Shown here: positions 11,989-21,918 of the stretch, piece by piece
Layout of the letters: each line of letters begins with the position of its first letter
Numbering within the stretch: the first letter of the stretch is position 1
NCBI GenBank assembly: GCA_913058185.1
Contig: CAJXQX010000038.1
Location: 1 to 35,913, forward strand
Length of the DNA stretch: 35,913 nt
Reading direction: 5' to 3'
Source: an uncultured Verrucomicrobiota bacterium
GTDB taxonomy: Bacteria > Verrucomicrobiota > Verrucomicrobiia > Opitutales > Opitutaceae
Made by a program: the position numbers and the translations under genes
Notes under the pieces: model-generated
The model's input: the letters and a program-made list of their open reading frames with translations, nothing else
Databases searched by the model: none
What the model was told of the DNA's origin: nothing

Positions 11989-14292
11989 TCAACGGCTCAG
12001 TCGTTGGGCTGTCTTCACTTCTTCGTGCTCCAGCAGGAATGCCCGACGGCGTTCGAAGAACGCTCGCAGGCTATTCTCATCACTGCCGTCGACTCCGTCA
12101 TAGAATTCTTCCGTTAAATGCAGTTTGCGGGTGTCGGCTTTGATGTCTTCTTCGATCAGGGCCTGATAAAGCAAAATCCGAGGAGCATTCTTTTCCCAAT
12201 CCAGCCAATTTTCGGCGATGTCGCGCACATAGCTCAAGTAGCGGGCGCGTAGTTCCGGAACTGCGAGCAACTTCGAAGCAAGGGGGCGACTCTCGTCGTT
12301 CTCGAGGACCAACGGATCCAAGTCTATGCCGCCTCCGCTTGGTCTTCCGCCGGGAGCGCCCCCAGGACCACCACCCGCGCCACCTCTGCCTCTGAAACCA
12401 CCGGGGGCATTTGCACCACCAGTATTCCCCCGACCACGTCTCGGACCGGCCTGAGCCGTGGCGCCGCCGTTCTGTTCACGGATACCAATCAAAGTAGCGT
12501 TGATCCCTTCAGTCATCTGCCTGGTGGAGAGGGCACCCAACAGTTCCCCACCCCACTCCGTGAACCATGCGCCAAGACGGTTTTCCAAATCGGCGTGAGC
12601 CACCTGTCCATCCTCGTCGGCATCGACCGACGTGAATAGATCGCCACCGATAAATGCAATGGGAGAAAAGCCCGCTCGACCGCCCGGCGCCGGAGGTCCA
12701 CTCGATTCGGGCTGACGATCCACCAGTTTCGTCAGACCGGCGACGAATTGGTCGCGATCCAGCGTTGCGGTTTGGTCCACTCCGGCATCCAGAAACCAGG
12801 CGTCAGCCAGAGTTAAAAATTCGTCACGTTCGGCCTCTCCATCTTCGTTGCCATCTGCTTCAGCAATCAGGGCTGGAGCCACAAACGTCCCCGGTGAAAA
12901 ACCACCGGCGCCGGCTCTGCCTCTGCCCGTTTGTCCCCGGCCGCCACGCGCACCGCCCGGAGCTCCACCGCCCGGAGGTCCACCCCCGCCTCGGCCCACA
13001 GAAAAGGTCTCATTCGCATCGTAGGGCATAACGTGAAATTTTCCGTATGAATCCTGGTAGATACTGTAGTCACTCGCTCGAACCCAAAAGCCGTCGTTGT
13101 TTACAAGCACGTTGTCCAAGGCGAGAAACTTCAGCACGCCGTCCACATCAAGAATCGGAGCGAGCGCACTGGCCAGCAACTCCGTGGGTGTCTCGTTCAG
13201 CGTTTGGGAAAGCAACATGAGCCCCACCCAGCTTTTCGGGTCTTCTTTCGATTTCAGTTCGAAAATTTCGCGATACGGTTCGATTTCATCTCCGAGATAT
13301 GCGAGGCCGCCTTGTCCTGCTGGACTACCGGGCACTTTCCAACGGACGCCCTTCGGCGTGCCAAAAAAATCCTTGGTGAAATTCGAATCAAACTGCTGCA
13401 CGTTGGCGTAGACGCCCCAGCTCTCGCCATTGATCACCACTCGCATAAAATTCGCCTTGAAAGCGGGGATGTATTCCCGAGCGATTTCATAGTAGAGGAC
13501 GGAGCGGAGCATGGTCGCGTCTCCATTGGCATTCAGCAGGTTCATCGTGCTGTAGCCGCCGATTTTCTGTTTCGGATGCACCAAATCGAGGGTGATATTC
13601 AGCGGCCTCTTTCGACCACTCGCTATCGTCGAGTAGGAAGTATTTCCCCTAAATCGAATACCGACGTGACGCATCGTTTGGCCATCCACTTCAAGGTTCG
13701 CCGGCACATCGACATCGGTGTAGCGAAATGCCTCCAGCTGTTTCTCCCAATCGTCATTGTCAAATTCGAGGAACAAGGTTCGGAGCGAAAAGGGGTCATA
13801 CAGCGGCGCGTCAGGAAGCGAGGCTACATCCGCCGGAGCAACCTGGAGACCTGGTTCGGATTCGCCCTGTTCACCGCCGGAACCAGGCCCGCCACGACCA
13901 CGCCCGCCGGGACCACCGGGACCGCGACCGCCGCCTGCAGCACCCGCGTCGCTTTGGGTTTCTAAATGAACGAGTGCGGCCTTTCGCTCGGTCGCATTGA
14001 GCCAGCCATTTCGATCCTCGTCAAACTGCACGAGAACCTTAACGGGCTCGCGACTACGTCTCGGACGTCCTCCTACCCCACCCGGGCCTCCAGGGCCTCC
14101 GCCGCCGGGTCCACCTAAAGCCGCTTGGGCGCCAGGGCCGTTTGCGTTAGAGTCCGTCGGTGCGAACTCTTCATCAGATGAGGGTCCTAGTGTGATTATG
14201 ACCAAGACGCCCACGACCAATCCCACGGCCAGCACCCCAATAGTCAGGTCTACCAATGAAGAATGAGAGGGTTTCAATCGTGAACGTTTCAT
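11989..14292 (-). CDS. CotH-family protein kinase-like protein with EF-hands and Gly-rich linkers
   Basis: A 767-residue membrane-anchored protein. A short basic N-terminus precedes one helix (about 15-36), so the bulk should face the periplasm. The CotH domain spans about 165-430: LRTLFLEFDNDDWE, HVGIRFRGNTSYS, RPLNITLDL, MNLLNANGDATMLRS, VINGESWGVYANVQQFD and MPYDANETF (Mg-binding DxN-like, 425-427). A helical tail carries RARYLSYVRDIAENWL. Three EF-hand loops are visible: DEDRNGWLNATE (91-102), DGNEDGEAERDE (479-490) and DADEDGQVAHAD (557-568). Gly/Pro/Arg-rich low-complexity blocks lie near 56-80, 118-140, 432-465 and 640-675. CotH of Bacillus spores is an atypical protein kinase. Last gene of the DUF4956-VTC-CotH operon, 26 nt after VTC. 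Calcium dependence is inferred from the EF-hands. Confidence 0.9.
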   Translation of the reverse strand: MKRSRLKPSHSSLVDLTIGVLAVGLVVGVLVIITLGPSSDEEFAPTDSNANGPGAQAALGGPGGGGPGGPGGVGGRPRRSREPVKVLVQFDEDRNGWLNATERKAALVHLETQSDAGAAGGGRGPGGPGGRGRGGPGSGGEQGESEPGLQVAPADVASLPDAPLYDPFSLRTLFLEFDNDDWEKQLEAFRYTDVDVPANLEVDGQTMRHVGIRFRGNTSYSTIASGRKRPLNITLDLVHPKQKIGGYSTMNLLNANGDATMLRSVLYYEIAREYIPAFKANFMRVVINGESWGVYANVQQFDSNFTKDFFGTPKGVRWKVPGSPAGQGGLAYLGDEIEPYREIFELKSKEDPKSWVGLMLLSQTLNETPTELLASALAPILDVDGVLKFLALDNVLVNNDGFWVRASDYSIYQDSYGKFHVMPYDANETFSVGRGGGGPPGGGAPGGARGGRGQTGRGRAGAGGFSPGTFVAPALIAEADGNEDGEAERDEFLTLADAWFLDAGVDQTATLDRDQFVAGLTKLVDRQPESSGPPAPGGRAGFSPIAFIGGDLFTSVDADEDGQVAHADLENRLGAWFTEWGGELLGALSTRQMTEGINATLIGIREQNGGATAQAGPRRGRGNTGGANAPGGFRGRGGAGGGPGGAPGGRPSGGGIDLDPLVLENDESRPLASKLLAVPELRARYLSYVRDIAENWLDWEKNAPRILLYQALIEEDIKADTRKLHLTEEFYDGVDGSDENSLRAFFERRRAFLLEHEEVKTAQRLSR

Positions 14293-14318
14293 GACTTTTT
14301 AGAAATTTGGGTTTCTGG

Positions 14319-15032
14319 TCAGGCGCGACGAATAGCCTCAATCCCCAAGACGTATTTGGAGCAACGGGCGATGCGGCAGGGAAACCAGTTAGCGATATCA
14401 GCGGCGCAATCGCCGTCGGCTGGCGCATACTTGAGCTCAATAACTACGGCGTATTCTTCGGGTGCTGAGCTGACTAACGCAGTCGCAGTGCGGTCAGGAG
14501 CATAAAATGAGAGATCTGAATCCACGGTGAGGCGGACTCGGCCATCGCCGCTCAGAAAATAGTGGCGGTGATATCGATTGATGAGACTGGGTTGTCGATC
14601 GTCGAGACAGCGGGACAAGGGGTTCTCCGGGCCCAGTTTGCTCAGCATCGCCCGCAATTTCGGTTCGTCCAGTCCACCGTTAAGAGCCAACTCGGGCACC
14701 GCGCTCGAAAGTTTCCCGCTTAGGGTGCCTTGCTTGCGTTTCCGTTCGAACACCGGTTTCGAAATCGATCCGCGCAGATCCCCATACCAACGGATGCGGC
14801 TCTTACTTCTCGTGGCCAGTCCCGTGACGTGGTCGTGGTAATCCTCCAATCGCGGGGAATCGAGGTAGAGGTTATTCACCCAGCGAGGCGAATAAACCTC
14901 ATGAAATCCGGAGGGATGCTGGTGGATCAACGCCAACACTTCCGGATGAGCGTAGCCCACCGGGAGTAGCTTCCGCTCATAGCGAAGATCATCAGATGCC
15001 AAGTTCACAGCGAGGTCGCGGGGTGGGATCAA
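14319..15032 (-). CDS. VTC-domain polyphosphate polymerase-like protein
   Basis: A 237-residue soluble protein consisting of one VTC (CYTH-like tunnel) domain. In eukaryotic VTC4 this fold makes polyphosphate from ATP. Candidate tunnel residues are all present: RYERK (17-21), NNLYLDS (53-59), KSRIRWYG (77-84), FERKRKQG (95-102), NRYHRHYF (152-159), RLTVDSD (167-173), VIELKY (197-202) and CSKYVLGIEAI (224-234). The start is a TTG at 15032 that overlaps the upstream TGA, mimicking an ATGA overlap; no in-frame ATG exists before the first conserved block (a GTG at codon 9 is the alternative). It lies between DUF4956 and CotH, a grouping that I recall from other bacteria. Polymerase activity is by homology only. 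Confidence 0.87.
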   Translation of the reverse strand: MIPPRDLAVNLASDDLRYERKLLPVGYAHPEVLALIHQHPSGFHEVYSPRWVNNLYLDSPRLEDYHDHVTGLATRSKSRIRWYGDLRGSISKPVFERKRKQGTLSGKLSSAVPELALNGGLDEPKLRAMLSKLGPENPLSRCLDDRQPSLINRYHRHYFLSGDGRVRLTVDSDLSFYAPDRTATALVSSAPEEYAVVIELKYAPADGDCAADIANWFPCRIARCSKYVLGIEAIRRA

Positions 15033-15715
15033 TGGTTCAGACCGGCATCCTCAAGGCAGGTAATTTCGACCGATGGGCTGAGACTGCGCATGGTCTCACT
15101 AAAGGTCTCAATGCCTTGAGGGTCGACAAACCCGACTCGGAAGGAGGCTCGCATTAACTCAGGGCCATCATCAATTCGCTTCAAACTGGCCGTGGCCCCA
15201 ACGCTGGAGAGCGATTCCAAGATCTGCTTGGTCGTAAGTTTGGCTGGAGCCGGGCTATTTATCGTCAGAAACAGGTTTCCCGAATCAGTCTGGGGACGAG
15301 AAAGACTTCGCAGCGCAATGAGTCCGAGGATCAATACAAATGCCACCACGGTCACCAGCCCTTGTCCCGCTCCCATGCCCAAGCCAACGGAGATCGCGAG
15401 GAACAGGAATGCCAGTTCCTCGGGCTCTTTGATCGCCGCCCGGAATCGCACAATCGACAGCGCGCCGACCAAACCAAGCGACAAAGCGAGAGAGGATTTG
15501 ACGATGCTAATGATCAGCGCAGTGGTCACGGTCAGTAACAGAAAATTCCGCGCGAACTGACGCCGATTTGAAAGGGCGGTGCCGAACCTGACATAGGCCA
15601 AACCTAGAATCCACCCCAGGAGAGCGGCGGTGAGTAGGCTAAGGGCTAAGGTCGGCAGTGACTCGATGGTCACCGGGTTCCAGAACAATTCAGTGAAGCT
15701 ATTTTGCAGTTGCAT
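15029..15715 (-). CDS. DUF4956 family membrane protein
   Basis: A 228-residue integral membrane protein. Hydrophobic helices lie at about 19-42, 54-72, 74-90, 100-116 and 117-136; a soluble C-terminal domain follows (about 145-228). The family hallmark is the stretch SLALSLGLVGALSIVRFR followed by IKEPEELAFLF (about 73-105), with charged residues inside the membrane zone. No function has been assigned to DUF4956 to my knowledge. First gene of the operon with VTC and CotH, overlapping VTC by 4 nt. In yeast the VTC catalytic subunit works with membrane subunits, so DUF4956 may be the bacterial membrane partner for polyphosphate handling; that is inference. No clear promoter is seen upstream in 15716-15837. 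Confidence 0.85.
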   Translation of the reverse strand: MQLQNSFTELFWNPVTIESLPTLALSLLTAALLGWILGLAYVRFGTALSNRRQFARNFLLLTVTTALIISIVKSSLALSLGLVGALSIVRFRAAIKEPEELAFLFLAISVGLGMGAGQGLVTVVAFVLILGLIALRSLSRPQTDSGNLFLTINSPAPAKLTTKQILESLSSVGATASLKRIDDGPELMRASFRVGFVDPQGIETFSETMRSLSPSVEITCLEDAGLNH

Positions 15716-16257: not shown

Positions 16258-17733
16258 TCAATACTGGGACTGCAGTTTACGGTGGTCCGTTTTGGGCTCC
16301 ACTCCGGCGGCTAACATGATGCCGACAATGGCCTCAGAAGTTGCGGCGGAAGGTTTAAAGTTTCCCGGACGATAACCGTCGGCGATATCGAGCGGCGTCC
16401 AACCGCGGTCGTTGAACTGATTCCAGATTTCGATGTCGGCACCGTTCTCGTAGAGGAATTGCGCGACACGCGGGAAGTTCTTGTAGGCGGCACCGTGCAT
16501 CACGGTCTCTTCGTTACTGTCGGTGTCGTTGATGTCGGCCCCGAGCTCGAGGAGGAGGGCCAACAAGGCGAGCGCGTCATCTTCGTCACCCGCTTCTTCT
16601 TCTGGGGCGTGGTTGCCGAGTCCGGCCGCGATGAGGATCGGGGAGGTGCCATCGGCATTGCGTTTGAAGGGATCGGCGCCTTCGGCGAGGAGGAATTTGG
16701 CCATCTCCACGTCCCCGGTATGACAGGCGAGAATGAACGGGGTATTGCCGCGATTAGGCAAATGAGCGCCGCCCTTACCGCGACGGTTTCCACTGGTGAG
16801 GGACAAATTCACATCGGCGCCCCACTCCACCAGAGCTTCGGCCATATCCATGCTGTTAAGGTTGCCTTTACCAATCGGCACCGGGTCACCCGCGGCGTTG
16901 TCGCCGAGGTCGGGATTGCGCACCCAACTTAACGTGTGGAGCGGCGCGAAGCCGGACCGTTGGTCATCGGGATCGGCGCCGGCCTCGAGTAACTCCCGGG
17001 CCAATTCGAAATGCCCGTTCTCAATCGCGAGAATCAGTGGGCTGGTGCCCTTTTTGGGTGGTTTATGAGCTTGAGAGCCGGTGGGTTCGATGGCGGCGTT
17101 GGGGTTCTCGCCGCGGCGAAGAAACAGATCTACCACGTCCGAATGACCTTCGCGCACGGCGAACATCAGTGGGGTAAATCCAGATTTCACCGCACTTTTG
17201 AAATCAGCACCGACTCCGATCATGTATTCGACGACCTGCAGGTGCCCTTCCGCGGCAGCCCACATGAGTGCCGTTTGCGCGCCCTTAGGCAACTTGGCTT
17301 CGAGATCGGCTCCGGCTTCTACGAGTACGCGCACGGCGTCCACCTTGCCGGTGCGAGCCGCCGTCATGAGAGCGGTTTCTCCTCCCTTGCGCATGCTGTT
17401 GGGATCGATTCCGGCGCTGAGGAGTCCCTCAATAATAGCGGCGTTGCCGCTGAGACAAGCTAGGTAAAGCGGTGTGACCCCGTAGCGATTGGCCCCGGTC
17501 GGATCGGCGCCGACTTCGAGCAGCTTGAGCGCAGTCGTCGCGTCGTCGCGATAGCAGGCCCATTGCAACGGCGTGGTGCCATCAACTTGGGGCCCATTCA
17601 CGTCAGCGCCGGCGGCAATTAATTCTCGAGAGGCGTTGAGGTCACCCTGCTCTACGGCATCGGCTAAATCAGATCCCCCTGCCCCCCAGACCGTCGCAGC
17701 CCAAAGGCTGCTAAAAAAAAGCAACCGCTTCAT
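16258..17733 (-). CDS. Exported ankyrin-repeat protein
   Basis: A 491-residue protein. The ATG at 17733 is chosen over an in-frame TTG two codons earlier because it gives a good signal peptide (MKRLLFFSSLWAATVWG), so the repeats should be periplasmic. About eleven ankyrin repeats fill residues 20-475, for example TPLQWACYRDDATTALKLLE, TALMTAARTGKVDAVRVLVE, TALMWAAAEGHLQVVEYMIG and TPLMFAVREGHSDVVDLFLR. The eighth repeat carries a longer insert (about 270-320) and the tenth an acidic one (PEEEAGDEDDA). No haem or enzyme motif is present, so it is probably a binding scaffold. It begins 2 nt after the DUF1552 stop; association with this cytochrome pair suggests that it binds one of them. Confidence 0.9.
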   Translation of the reverse strand: MKRLLFFSSLWAATVWGAGGSDLADAVEQGDLNASRELIAAGADVNGPQVDGTTPLQWACYRDDATTALKLLEVGADPTGANRYGVTPLYLACLSGNAAIIEGLLSAGIDPNSMRKGGETALMTAARTGKVDAVRVLVEAGADLEAKLPKGAQTALMWAAAEGHLQVVEYMIGVGADFKSAVKSGFTPLMFAVREGHSDVVDLFLRRGENPNAAIEPTGSQAHKPPKKGTSPLILAIENGHFELARELLEAGADPDDQRSGFAPLHTLSWVRNPDLGDNAAGDPVPIGKGNLNSMDMAEALVEWGADVNLSLTSGNRRGKGGAHLPNRGNTPFILACHTGDVEMAKFLLAEGADPFKRNADGTSPILIAAGLGNHAPEEEAGDEDDALALLALLLELGADINDTDSNEETVMHGAAYKNFPRVAQFLYENGADIEIWNQFNDRGWTPLDIADGYRPGNFKPSAATSEAIVGIMLAAGVEPKTDHRKLQSQY

Positions 17734-17735
17734 GG

Positions 17736-19079
17736 TCAAATGGTCAGAGGTTGAATAACGTCATCGAGCAGCCCGGTGCTGTCGCCGAAGGAGTCAATTT
17801 CCACGCCAGCTTTGTCCATCATCGAGAGGTGGAGATTGGCGAGCGGCGTCGGTTTATCATAGGTGATGTGGCGGTTGCCTTTCACGCCGAGAGCCGAGCC
17901 ACCGGCAATGATCACCGGCAGATCGACGTGGTCATGCAGGTTCGGATTACCCATGCCACTGCCATACATGAAGAGCGACGTATCGAGCAGCGTCCCGTTG
18001 CCTTCCGGAGTCTCGCCGAGTTTGGCGATAAAGTCGGCGAAGAGCGAAAGGTGGAATTGATTGATCTTCGCCATGCGTTCGATCTTGGCCGGATCGTTGC
18101 CATGGTGAGACAGCGGATGATGTGGATCGTCGATGCCGATTTCCGGGTAAGCCCGGGTGCTGGTTTCGCGGGCCAGCTGGAAGGAGAAGACGCGCGTTAT
18201 GTCGCCCTGCATGGCGAGCAGCTGAAGATCGAACATCAACTTCGCGTGATCGGCGTAAACCTCGGGCACTCCCGTCGGGCGATCAAGATCGGGTAATAGG
18301 TTTTCCTTAGTATTGGCTTCGGCGCGTTGGATGCGACGCTCCACTTCGCGCACGGAAGTGAGGTAATCATCGACCTTGGAACGATCTGCGCTCCCGAGCT
18401 CGCGTTTGAGCCGACGGATATCTTCGGTGACAAAATCGAGCAGGCTCGAGCGACGCGATAAGGCAGCGCGACGATCCTCTGGCGTGCCGCCTTCGCCAAA
18501 GAGTTTTTCGAATACAAGGCGCGGATGCGCCTCGGCCGGAAGCGGCGTAGTCGGCGACGACCAAGAAAGGTTGTTCTGGTAAACGCAGGCGTAGCCGTTG
18601 TCGCACTGGCCGATGTTCTGCATCATGTCCATCGCGAGTTCGAGGGATGGCAATTGAGTCTGTTGGCCGATAGATTGAGCAGCGATCTGATCGACCGTCG
18701 TCCCGAGATAGTAATCGGTGCTCTCGGTTACCTTAGCCTTAGCCGCGCTGAGAAAGGCCGAGTTCGAAGTCGCATGGGACCCCGGATAAGCCGGACGCAG
18801 TTCGAGATTGGAAACGACACTAACATTTTCTCGAATCGGAGCGAGGGGCTCGAGAATGTAACTGAGGTTGTCGAGGTTGTCGCCCTGCGGCGTCCATCGA
18901 GTCATGTCGGCGCCCATGGGAATGAAGGTGTAACCGATGCGCTTGGCCTTGAGGGCTTCAACGCTCGCGAGTCTGGTGGCTGCTGGGACCATCGCATCGA
19001 GCAGGGGTAGACCGAGAGTGGCACCCATGCCTCCGATGAAGGTGCGTCGAGAAAGGGCTTTACGAGTCAGTGGGGTCAT
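17736..19079 (-). CDS. DUF1552 family Tat-exported protein
   Basis: A 447-residue protein with a twin-arginine signal (LSRRTFIGG, residues 9-17, then GATLGLPLLDAM). The body matches DUF1552: RIGYTFIPMGADMTRWTP, HATSNSAFLSAA, STDYYLGTTVDQIAAQ, LPSLELAMD, DFVTEDIRRLKRELG, DYLTSVREVERRIQ, HHPLSHHG and YGSGMGNPNLHDHVDLPVIIAGG. Several His/Asp residues in the last blocks look like a metal site, as in the related DUF1501 proteins, but no reaction is known. ATG overlaps the stop of the DUF1592-type cytochrome (ATGA), so the two are coupled. The pairing of DUF1552 with DUF1592-type cytochromes is standard in PVC bacteria. Confidence 0.92.
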   Translation of the reverse strand: MTPLTRKALSRRTFIGGMGATLGLPLLDAMVPAATRLASVEALKAKRIGYTFIPMGADMTRWTPQGDNLDNLSYILEPLAPIRENVSVVSNLELRPAYPGSHATSNSAFLSAAKAKVTESTDYYLGTTVDQIAAQSIGQQTQLPSLELAMDMMQNIGQCDNGYACVYQNNLSWSSPTTPLPAEAHPRLVFEKLFGEGGTPEDRRAALSRRSSLLDFVTEDIRRLKRELGSADRSKVDDYLTSVREVERRIQRAEANTKENLLPDLDRPTGVPEVYADHAKLMFDLQLLAMQGDITRVFSFQLARETSTRAYPEIGIDDPHHPLSHHGNDPAKIERMAKINQFHLSLFADFIAKLGETPEGNGTLLDTSLFMYGSGMGNPNLHDHVDLPVIIAGGSALGVKGNRHITYDKPTPLANLHLSMMDKAGVEIDSFGDSTGLLDDVIQPLTI

Positions 19080-21745
19080 AGGGCAGTCCTCATTTGAAAG
19101 GGCACGCTTTGGGCGATACCGGAGATGATAGCAGAAATTTTGTAATTGTCAGCCTCGGCGTCGTGCACGATCCGACGGACGGCGGGAGCATCATAATACT
19201 CGAGGCCCCGACCCAGCGCAAAGGTCAGCAGCTTTTCCGTCATCGTGCCGACAAAGAGGTCGGGGCGTTGCAGCAAAGCATCTTCGAGACCTTGGGCTCC
19301 GTGGAACTCTGCTCCATCCGGCAAGCCGCCCGAAGCATCGATGGTGTGGCCCAGCTCGCTGTCCCGCCAGCGACCGACTGAATCGAAGTTCTCCAGCGCG
19401 AACCCGATTGGGTCCATCATATTGTGACAGCTCGCACAGGCGGGATCCGCCCGATGGAGCGCCAGTCGTTCCCGCATGGGTAATGACTCCGAAATCACAC
19501 CTTCGAGCGAAGGGATATTCGGCGGTGGCGGTGGCGGTGGCGTGCCGATGAAATTCTCCAGGATCCAGTTTCCCCGGATTACGGGGGACGTGCGGGTCGC
19601 ATAGGATGTGACGGTGAGAATACTGCCCTGTCGCAACAATCCACCGCGATTAAACTTGCGCTCTAGATCGACCCGGCGAAAGCGACTCCCGCGAATCGAT
19701 GGGATATCATAATGACGAGCGAGCCGTTCGTTGAGGTAAGTGTAATCCGCCGAGATCAAGTCGACGGCGCTGCGGTCTTCGCGGATGATACTCTCGACAA
19801 ATAACTCCGTCTCTTGGCGGAAGGATTGACGCAGGTTGTCATCAAAGTCGGGAAACAACCGCAGGTTGGGCGCCGTGTTTTCGAGATTACGCAAGTGCAG
19901 CCATTGTCCGGCGAAGTTGGTGGCGAGATTGGCCGCGCGGGGATCGGCGAGCATGCGGCTGACTTGGCGATCGAGCACGTCCGGATCGCGCAGTTTGCCC
20001 TGCTCAGCGAGCGTCAACAGCTCGTCATCAGGAATACTGCTCCACACAAAAAATGACAGTCGTGATGCCAGTTCGAGATCACTGATGGCGTAGGCTTCAC
20101 CTGACTCGACGTGCTCGGGTTCGCGTTCAATGCGGAAGAGGAATTCCGGACTCACTAGAATCGCCGACAACGCCAATTCAATCCCCGCCTCAAATCCACC
20201 CTCAGCGTTCCCCTCGTCGAAGAAAGCCATGGGTTTCTCGAGATCGGCTTTCACCACAGGTCGGCGGTAAGCGGACCGTATCAAATTGCTCAGAATCTTT
20301 TTCGCGGCGACCTCGGGACTGCGCTCCTGATCGGGAGTCGTGACGAAAACCTTATTCCGGCTCGGGGTTTCGCTTACGCCGGAGGACGAGAACGGACCGG
20401 TGATCGTAACTTGATAGAGTGCGGGATTCTGCCGCGGATGACGGTGGAAATTAAACCGCGCTTCGAAAGGTTTACGGCGGGTCTCCATCAGTGGTGCCAG
20501 CGGCTCAGGAAAGGTGACACCCAGATTGGCGGGACCGGCATTAAATTCGCCTCGGTAGACGAGGTGGCGATCTACGGTCACGTGATCCTGTCGGCCATCG
20601 TCCGGCTTCTTGATCGTAAAACTCTCCAGCAATTCGTTGGCCAACAACAATTCAATTTGGCTGCTGCCGCCCAACCCTTCGACGTGTTCGTTGCGGTCGC
20701 GAGCAAGTCGCATGCGGACTTCGTAAACACCATCGCGAGGAAAGTTGTAGGGAATGAGCGTTCCACCGCGCGTGCCCAGAGGCAGCCCATCCACATGCTT
20801 TTCCTGCGTGCGGTCGGCCGGAATTCGTACGGTATGTCCGGCCGGAATTTTTAATGGTGCGCCCACCGCTAGGCGACTGATCCGTTGCGATGCGGTGATG
20901 TAGCGGTCCATCAAAGTCGGCGACAGATTCGTCACGGTGATATTGTCGAAGCCGTGGGCTAATTCATCGGCCGGCAATACACTCGCCGCGTCAAAATCGA
21001 CCGCCAGCAGATCGCGAATTGCGTTCTGGTATTCAGTGCGGTTCATGCGCCGGAACGATTCAATGCGACCCGGCTGAGGGTCGGCAGTGGCACCTTCATC
21101 GAGCACCCCGGCCAAGTCGTGGGTGAACTTTTGGTAGATATCTTCATCCGGCCGGCGGCGTTCATCGGCCGGCGGCATTTGCCGAGCGTGCATCCGGTGC
21201 ATCAACTTTTCCAACAATTCGGGATGAGCCTTCGGGTCATCCAAATCCAGTCCCTCCAACACCAGTTCGCCCTCCGCGTCGTTCGTGTTATGACAGGAGA
21301 TACAGTAGGTTTCGACGAGTGCATTGGTCGTCGTGAACTCGGCCGGACCAGCATATCCCGCTTCCAATTCACCAAACCACGGTTCCATCCAACTTAGCAG
21401 CGACTCATACTCGGCCTCGCCCGGGCGGGCGATATCGGGTTCGTCGTCCGGCGGCATGTCTCGATCCTGCATGGCCCAGAGAATCGATTCCCAAGCCTCA
21501 AACTCGGCCACGGGATCACCGGTCAACATCGATTCCATGTCGAACTTACCCTTCTTCTTCTCGGAATTGTGGCAATCGAGGCAGTAAGTCTCCGCGAATT
21601 TGGGGAACGGATTACGGAGCACCCCCGTTCCCGCTGTGGCCTGAGGAGATGGGGAAGACACCGATTGCGCCGAAGATACGAGGACGCCCAAAGACATCGC
21701 GGCAAACGACACGCAAAAAAACTTCTTAAAGGGGTAAGCAGACAC
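19076..21745 (-). CDS. Multi-domain cytochrome, DUF1587-DUF1595-DUF1592-DUF1588-DUF1585
   Basis: An 889-residue exported protein. A GTG start at 21745 is preferred: it gives a signal peptide (MSAYPFKKFFCVSFAAMSLG), whereas the frame open upstream to a TTG at 21814 would add 23 residues ahead of it. Two N-terminal haem sites follow, CLDCH (C55, C58, H59) and CISCH (C148, C151, H152), each trailed by a MPP axial-ligand-like motif. Then DUF1587 (FRRMNRTEYQNAIRDLL), a carbohydrate-binding-like region (GVYEVRMRLAR), DUF1595 (NLIRSAYRRPV), DUF1592 (EFLFRIERE, LASRLSFFVWSSIPDDELL), DUF1588 with a third haem-like CASCHNMMDPIGFALENFD (C770, C773, H774), and DUF1585 (LTFALGRGLEY). First gene of the operon with DUF1552 and the ankyrin protein. 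Enzymatic role unknown. Confidence 0.9.
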   Translation of the reverse strand: MSAYPFKKFFCVSFAAMSLGVLVSSAQSVSSPSPQATAGTGVLRNPFPKFAETYCLDCHNSEKKKGKFDMESMLTGDPVAEFEAWESILWAMQDRDMPPDDEPDIARPGEAEYESLLSWMEPWFGELEAGYAGPAEFTTTNALVETYCISCHNTNDAEGELVLEGLDLDDPKAHPELLEKLMHRMHARQMPPADERRRPDEDIYQKFTHDLAGVLDEGATADPQPGRIESFRRMNRTEYQNAIRDLLAVDFDAASVLPADELAHGFDNITVTNLSPTLMDRYITASQRISRLAVGAPLKIPAGHTVRIPADRTQEKHVDGLPLGTRGGTLIPYNFPRDGVYEVRMRLARDRNEHVEGLGGSSQIELLLANELLESFTIKKPDDGRQDHVTVDRHLVYRGEFNAGPANLGVTFPEPLAPLMETRRKPFEARFNFHRHPRQNPALYQVTITGPFSSSGVSETPSRNKVFVTTPDQERSPEVAAKKILSNLIRSAYRRPVVKADLEKPMAFFDEGNAEGGFEAGIELALSAILVSPEFLFRIEREPEHVESGEAYAISDLELASRLSFFVWSSIPDDELLTLAEQGKLRDPDVLDRQVSRMLADPRAANLATNFAGQWLHLRNLENTAPNLRLFPDFDDNLRQSFRQETELFVESIIREDRSAVDLISADYTYLNERLARHYDIPSIRGSRFRRVDLERKFNRGGLLRQGSILTVTSYATRTSPVIRGNWILENFIGTPPPPPPPNIPSLEGVISESLPMRERLALHRADPACASCHNMMDPIGFALENFDSVGRWRDSELGHTIDASGGLPDGAEFHGAQGLEDALLQRPDLFVGTMTEKLLTFALGRGLEYYDAPAVRRIVHDAEADNYKISAIISGIAQSVPFQMRTAL

Positions 21746-21918
21746 GCGCTGGCAGGGGTTATGAGAAAACACCCAAGATACAGGGTCGCTCAAGGGGAGA
21801 CGAACTCGACCCAAATCGGTTAAAACAGATCGGACAAAATTTCAACTCCTATCCAACCTAATATCTTACGCGCAAAGAAGGGAACGTCGGGGCGGTATGA
21901 CAGTTAAGCGGTGAAAAG

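Follow-up and report, generated by a model that had tools for sequence, protein, structure and literature searches.

A DUF4956, VTC and CotH gene trio shared by distant bacteria and archaea

Introduction

Gram-positive pel gene clusters contain accessory genes for CotH, a polyphosphate polymerase and DUF4956 (together with DUF4832), and in streptococci, clostridia and bifidobacteria this trio adjoins the pel genes (PMC7112168). The same three families lie next to each other in the DNA that we analyse here. It is a stretch of 35,913 nucleotides (the window) from an uncultured Verrucomicrobiota bacterium of the family Opitutaceae (GenBank assembly GCA_913058185.1, contig CAJXQX010000038.1). What we say of published work refers to excerpts of the cited papers.

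In Streptococcus intermedius the trio is SIR_1592-1594. Its CotH is secreted, and its DUF4956 protein has four membrane helices in an MgtC-like membrane part and an ACT domain (PMC12345266). Deleting the DUF4956 gene raises Pel, deleting the CotH gene lowers it, and each of the two deletions reduces aggregation in sputum medium by more than 50%. The polymerase deletion still aggregates, and the excerpt reports no change for it. There the authors (2025) also state that they did not find synteny of the trio outside Pel.

The locus NELoc-2 of Clostridium perfringens (CP4_0460-0465) holds VTC domain genes and a CotH gene, with membrane proteins of 222-226 amino acids (aa) between them. It differs from our locus in having two VTC genes and in the annotation of the membrane proteins as tubulin/FtsZ GTPases (PMC2879425). 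From their size and place, our guess is that these proteins are DUF4956.

In the open-access literature of PubMed Central we find only the Pel and C. perfringens papers, and no account of the trio as a general module. The initial annotation of the window, which was made from the sequence alone, proposed an undescribed system. This proposal has to be given up, since the trio has already been described beside Pel genes (PMC7112168, PMC12345266). The gene set beside Pel is known. New are its breadth, the co-occurrence of the families, the swap of partners and a CotH type with His at the catalytic position.

More distant relatives are known for the single proteins. In yeast, the VTC complex couples polyphosphate synthesis to translocation, and its channel is lined by basic residues (PMC9911596). 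Our locus shares with the yeast complex (Vtc1/Vtc3/Vtc4) the catalytic tunnel domain, the tunnel residues and the presence of conserved basic residues in the membrane partner. Unlike in yeast, the catalytic domain has no SPX domain and is not fused to membrane helices, the membrane partner is MgtC-like with no established relation to Vtc1, and a CotH is added. With the Bacillus spore-coat kinase CotH, the CotH of the window shares the Pfam family, a match to the structure 5jd9 and both catalytic Asp. Unlike the Bacillus protein, it is membrane-anchored, lies outside the membrane and carries an insertion with EF-hands and Gly-rich sequence.

Results

Conserved adjacency of the three genes

All three genes lie on the (-) strand. 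The DUF4956 gene (15029..15715) encodes a membrane protein of 228 aa that matches Pfam PF16316 with 49.9 bits. The VTC gene (14319..15032) has a TTG start and encodes 237 aa, which match PF09359 with 76.8 bits. The CotH gene (11989..14292) encodes a CotH kinase-like protein of 767 aa with an N-terminal membrane anchor, and its match to PF08757 (118.2 bits) is split over two stretches. The Pfam cut-offs for these families are 30.6, 23 and 23.8 bits. The VTC start overlaps the DUF4956 stop by 4 bp (TTGA), and 26 bp separate VTC from CotH. Coordinates, overlap, gap and Pfam matches all confirm the three coupled same-strand genes that had been claimed. Genome-wide, VTC and DUF4956 occur once each, and a further CotH lies away from the operon.

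To ask whether the genes are neighbours elsewhere, we took the best 80 of at least 521 relatives, one genome per species. This nearest-80 sample leans to the DUF4956 type of the window, and the counts use a strict VTC rule. DUF4956 has VTC as a neighbour in 69 of the 80 loci (numbered L below) and CotH in 64, and all three genes are together in 57. At the 41 loci flanked by 4 kb or more in both directions, all three are present in 36 and VTC is missing in one. The initial annotation had named adjacency no better than chance as the result that would speak against it; the counts go the other way. Nor do the placement of CotH and the tunnel residues of VTC, described below, agree with its two other refuting outcomes, a CotH domain in the cytosol and an inactive VTC.

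The 57 full loci span 15 named phyla, of which three are archaeal, plus four bacteria without a phylum name. Gene order varies: DUF4956-CotH-VTC occurs 22 times, DUF4956-VTC-CotH 20 times and CotH-DUF4956-VTC 15 times. Two Opitutales loci (L113 and L170; 84-85% identity) have the same order as the window. L160 and L159 are from two cultured organisms, Agaribacillus aureus and Methanogenium marinum.

In seven Bacteroidota loci (L134, L137, L138, L149, L152, L154 and L164), the order DUF4956-VTC-CotH is followed by a protein of 436-452 aa and then by a second CotH-like protein. The former is a Wzy_C protein in L154 and looks similar by eye in L149. The latter aligns neither catalytic Asp.

Co-occurrence in genomes

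Among 188 genomes of the window's class (genomes are numbered G), VTC is found in 42, DUF4956 in 45 and CotH in 47. All 42 VTC genomes contain DUF4956. VTC with CotH, VTC only, CotH only and neither occur in 41/1/6/140 genomes (Fisher 9e-34), and in 94/2/20/82 of the 198 genomes in the class of Agaribacillus (G203; 3e-33); these large tests are not corrected for species relatedness and are inflated by shared descent, which weakens them as support. When the window's class is collapsed to genera, counted by hand, the table reads 34/1/5/70 (7e-22). The most sober test is that of the window's own family, 5/0/1/12 (p 7e-4).

The dependence runs one way: a genome with VTC has CotH as a rule, and CotH can stand without VTC. 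In 14 control genomes, searched as a whole and irrespective of adjacency, Corynebacterium glutamicum and M. acetivorans hold all three families and B. subtilis holds CotH only.

From adjacency and co-occurrence, we conclude that DUF4956, VTC and CotH almost certainly constitute one functional module. That they are chance or hitch-hiking neighbours is refuted by the adjacency, the co-occurrence, the genus table and the tree counts given below, and as we found nothing in its favour, its probability is negligible.

Partner exchange among DUF4956 clades

For 70 loci of the window's class, window included, we identified a third gene on the same strand no more than 1.5 kb away. It is HlyD-like in 27 loci, CotH in 15, both in one and OprP-like in four; 23 loci have no recognised third gene. 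HlyD-like and OprP-like are labels from phmmer clusters, which Pfam confirmed for three HlyD-like and three of the four OprP-like proteins. Hence, the commonest arrangement in the class is an operon of VTC, DUF4956 and a HlyD-like adaptor (for example L041, L043, L063 and L086). In L060, L077, L079 and L087, VTC-DUF4956 is followed by a protein of PF07396, phosphate-selective porin O/P. L087 belongs to G085, which is from the same genus as the window. The name of PF07396 is weak support for a link to phosphate.

On a DUF4956 tree, the partner label changes four times compared to a mean of 27.9 for shuffled labels; 27 of the 135 rows are unlabelled, and the way the loci were sampled makes CotH labels more prone to cluster. 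The tree is a quick one, with rows below 200 aa and L097 dropped and long rows trimmed to the last 230 residues. Given so few changes, partner type belongs to DUF4956 type.

The VTC domain

PF09359 is the sole Pfam domain over the 237 aa of the VTC protein; neither an SPX domain (Pfam) nor a membrane stretch (hydropathy) is found in it. We aligned it in two hand-picked sets, 25 rows out of 63 VTC open reading frames (ORFs) of the class (A1), and the window plus 40 of the 63 listed VTC ORFs of L113-L192 (A5). All 13 invariant columns of the first and all 27 of the closer second alignment are present in the window protein. A profile of the 25-row alignment matches yeast Vtc4 at 7.1e-28.

We take the tunnel residues of Vtc4 to be K200, R264, R266, K281, K294, R361, R373, E426, K428 and K458. 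The window residues aligned to them are K21, R79, R81, K98, K107, R156, R167, E199, K201 and K226, and all of these are invariant in 41 of 41 rows. An AlphaFold model of the protein (pLDDT 91.7, pTM 0.88) has the tunnel fold, and in a fold search of the PDB, chains of the VTC complex take ranks 1-13. The intact tunnel that had been claimed is thus upheld by the alignments, the Vtc4 profile and the fold search. We think it somewhat more likely than not that the VTC protein of the module makes polyphosphate.

We considered VTC as a replacement of the polyphosphate kinase PPK1 and rejected this idea: PPK1 is present in 39 of 42 VTC genomes and in 112 of 146 others.

The DUF4956 membrane protein

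The model of the DUF4956 protein (pLDDT 82.7, pTM 0.62) shows five long helices followed by a ferredoxin-like domain, predicted to be cytosolic, at residues 148-222, a layout like that of MgtC. Hydropathy gives four membrane stretches. Of the earlier description as a multi-helix protein, the multiple helices stand; their number differs between model and hydropathy.

Two hand-picked alignments were used for DUF4956, 21 rows out of 57 ORFs (A2), and the window with 48 of the 69 listed ORFs of L113-L192 and 14 class ORFs (A4). The motif R90-F91-R92 (15440..15448, (-)) contains the sole invariant columns, R90 and R92, of 63 aligned sequences.

The DUF4956 profile aligns over its full length with E. 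coli YhiD, a member of the MgtC family (190-194 columns, probability 84.8-89.5, score 39-43), compared to scores of at most 6.3 for 22 controls (HdeD and 21 other proteins with at least three hydrophobic stretches). The likeness to MgtC/YhiD lies in this alignment and in the domain layout. Unlike that family, the window protein has no match to PF02308 (MgtC) at E<=0.1, and none was found in the window's genome. In the fold search the C-terminal domain of MgtC (2lqj) takes rank 20 (E 9.2e-3). An MgtC alignment built from relatives was set aside, as its matches were longer and had another layout, and E. coli YhiD was taken instead. The likeness to MgtC and ACT domains had already been given for the S. 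intermedius protein (PMC12345266).

In the DUF4956 protein of the Chloroflexota locus L178, a PF06439 domain precedes the first membrane helix, and the start resembles a signal peptide by eye. Therefore, the N-terminus of DUF4956 lies outside. If five helices follow an outside N-terminus, R90/R92 and the ferredoxin-like domain would both lie inside the cell. An extra N-terminal domain is also present in the DUF4956 proteins of L181, L186 and L190 (L178 included, these are Chloroflexota/Actinomycetota).

The CotH kinase-like protein

The sole hydrophobic stretch of the CotH protein, a membrane stretch by hydropathy, covers residues 18-36 (14185..14241, (-)). An N-terminal membrane stretch is present in 61 of 63 CotH ORFs of at least 500 aa in L113-L192; shorter ones were left out of this count and of the EF-hand count. 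Relatives' CotHs are fused to PKD (L178) or chitobiase-C/Fn3-type (L154) domains. Because of these stretches and fusions, we place CotH outside the cell membrane, in agreement with the extracytoplasmic single-pass protein proposed at first.

The window CotH matches 5jd9 with E 7.2e-4. Asp400 (NNDGFW; 13093..13095, (-)) aligns with the catalytic D228 of B. subtilis CotH and Asp425 (PYDAN; 13018..13020, (-)) with D251. This numbering was mapped by spacing via the 5jd9 alignment row, whose two Asp are 23 apart. Mutation of this Asp pair inactivates B. subtilis CotH (PMC7821199).

Module CotHs differ at these positions. In one MAFFT alignment of 59 CotHs (rows below 380 aa left out), both Asp are kept in 26, as they are in the window. 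In 28 there is a His at the catalytic Asp position (for example L131, L151, L158, L159, L169 and L185); 25 of these keep the second Asp. Four more have Pro, Trp, Asn or a gap-like pattern. The His-type proteins are mostly 780-925 aa long, and in 27 of the 28 loci (the exception is L182), CotH follows DUF4956 on the strand directly or with one gene between. The His-type CotH of L159 has a sub-threshold pectate-lyase-like match in its C-terminal part (E 7e-4). In L090 and L120, the CotH frame is broken by a TAG and is seen as two ORFs.

The three EF-hand loops that had been noticed are indeed there, all on the (-) strand: residues 91-102 (13987..14022) ahead of the kinase domain, and residues 480-491 (12820..12855) and 557-568 (12589..12624) within a part inserted into it. 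Among 63 other CotHs (L113-L192), two or more such loops occur only in L170, a close relative, which has the full set of three. Hence, we reject calcium gating as a trait of the module, and the general "calcium-gated" CotH of the initial annotation does not hold. By their sequence, the putative calcium sites are lineage-specific and belong to the close relatives of the window.

Pel is not a necessary setting in the window's class

The window genome has no match to PelG (PF16933), the only pel family that we searched. Above the cut-off, PelG occurs in six of the 188 class genomes, and one of these, G125, also carries VTC; G088 has a match below the cut-off only. No PelG match is found in any of the 14 genomes that hold the 16 CotH-type loci of the class. 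On these counts, we reject Pel as a necessary setting for the window's class. Compared to the Gram-positive Pel trio, the locus of the window thus comes without PelG in its genome, has EF-hands inserted in its CotH, and is bordered by a DUF7133/cytochrome gene on one side and an ankyrin gene on the other.

Discussion

To our knowledge, the phosphate source of kinases outside the bacterial membrane is an open question. A cytosolic polymerase of the polyphosphate type, a membrane protein and an outside kinase that are kept together across 15 named phyla, archaeal ones included, make the hypothesis of a polyphosphate donor testable. The module also gives the eukaryotic VTC complex a prokaryotic counterpart for comparison. 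In the literature found, the trio is discussed only with Pel (PMC7112168, PMC12345266, as excerpted); our results move it to a general setting. It is a shared unit of distant bacteria and archaea in which polyphosphate may be made to feed or control a reaction at the cell surface.

Our best reading, which we hold tentatively, is a conserved VTC-like envelope module serving an extracytoplasmic CotH. VTC at the cytosolic face would polymerise phosphate from ATP, like yeast Vtc4. DUF4956, MgtC-like and with an ACT-like domain in the cytosol, would be its membrane partner. The invariant R-x-R would sit where a membrane helix ends on the cytosolic side and would fit a role in translocation like that of the basic channel residues of yeast VTC (PMC9911596). 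DUF4956 would take up or sense the polyanion and most likely hand the polymer, or its signal, outward. That it moves polyphosphate across the membrane itself seems to us possible and rather doubtful. The output would be CotH, a membrane-anchored putative phosphotransferase whose domain faces outward and which would modify surface proteins or glycans.

The boldest step, which we call speculation, is that CotH uses polyphosphate as a donor. We consider it unlikely. The S. intermedius polymerase deletion (PMC12345266) and the 28 His-type CotHs make such donor use doubtful. In its widest form, DUF4956 and VTC would be a prokaryotic VTC-like synthase/translocase that exports polyphosphate as donor for an extracytoplasmic CotH, ATP being lacking outside, and in other clades the HlyD-like and OprP-like partners would take this polymer onward through the envelope. 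To this form, too, we give a low probability.

Besides these two observations, several others weigh against a module serving CotH. Of the 41 well-covered loci, four contain DUF4956 and VTC but no CotH, and the control genome Bacteroides ihuae contains VTC and DUF4956 without CotH. Most loci of the window's class have a partner other than CotH or none that is recognised. The VTC genomes with PPK1 include that of the window, so VTC is not needed as the sole polyphosphate enzyme there. Finally, the fold search with the DUF4956 model finds the ferredoxin-like domain only, with no membrane match, and its sole match at E<=0.001 is a designed protein.

Alternatively, the trio could regulate surface polysaccharide or adhesion. 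Like MgtC, DUF4956 would then sense the phosphate or energy state, CotH would tune the amount or attachment of the polymer, and the VTC product would at most be a cytosolic signal that stays inside. We regard this as a serious possibility, short of an even chance. The position beside pel genes and the S. intermedius phenotypes of DUF4956 and CotH, which the polymerase deletion is not reported to share, argue for it (PMC7112168, PMC12345266). So does the Bacteroidota locus L154, where the trio lies amid two glycosyltransferases, two acyltransferases and a Wzy_C protein. The resemblance of DUF4956 to YhiD also fits, as MgtC promotes phosphate uptake in Salmonella (PMC6658541). Hence, a link to surface polymers is likely in some lineages. 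However, regulation of this kind gives no reason for CotH to have retained a neighbouring polymerase whose active site is complete, as it has in 36 of the 41 well-covered loci. Furthermore, the flanking genes examined in the window are not polysaccharide genes, and its genome is without a PelG match.

Second, the VTC domain could act as a triphosphate hydrolase or as some other triphosphate tunnel metalloenzyme (TTM), and the module would then be unrelated to polyphosphate. TTM triphosphatases/hydrolases and class IV cyclases directly follow the VTC chains in the fold search, and the hydrolases share the tunnel residues in part. Both facts also count against polyphosphate synthesis. Yet the first 13 ranks belong to VTC chains, and the bacterial profile finds Vtc4. 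Furthermore, R17 is invariant in 41 of 41 rows, and Vtc4 also has an Arg at the aligned position, where CYTH hydrolases have the first Glu of their ExExK motif. We therefore think a hydrolase improbable.

Third, CotH could mainly be a scaffold or pseudokinase, with a module function independent of phosphoryl transfer. The His-type CotHs and the four with other changes point this way. Against it, the window and 26 of the 59 keep both Asp, and since nearly all His-type proteins retain the second Asp, some catalytic role is possible for them; the position of the His comes from a single alignment. A scaffold, too, has a small chance of being the answer. The module serving an extracytoplasmic CotH remains our preferred reading.

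Surroundings of the operon

Between 11700 and 16300, we find no promoter or terminator signals above those of shuffled sequence, and no RNA families are found across the window. One side of the operon is flanked by a DUF7133/HEAT/cytochrome gene on the opposite strand, and the ankyrin gene lies upstream. At 16258-21814 (-), the window contains three genes with 4-base overlaps, which encode ankyrin repeats, DUF1552 and a planctomycete-type cytochrome/PSD protein.

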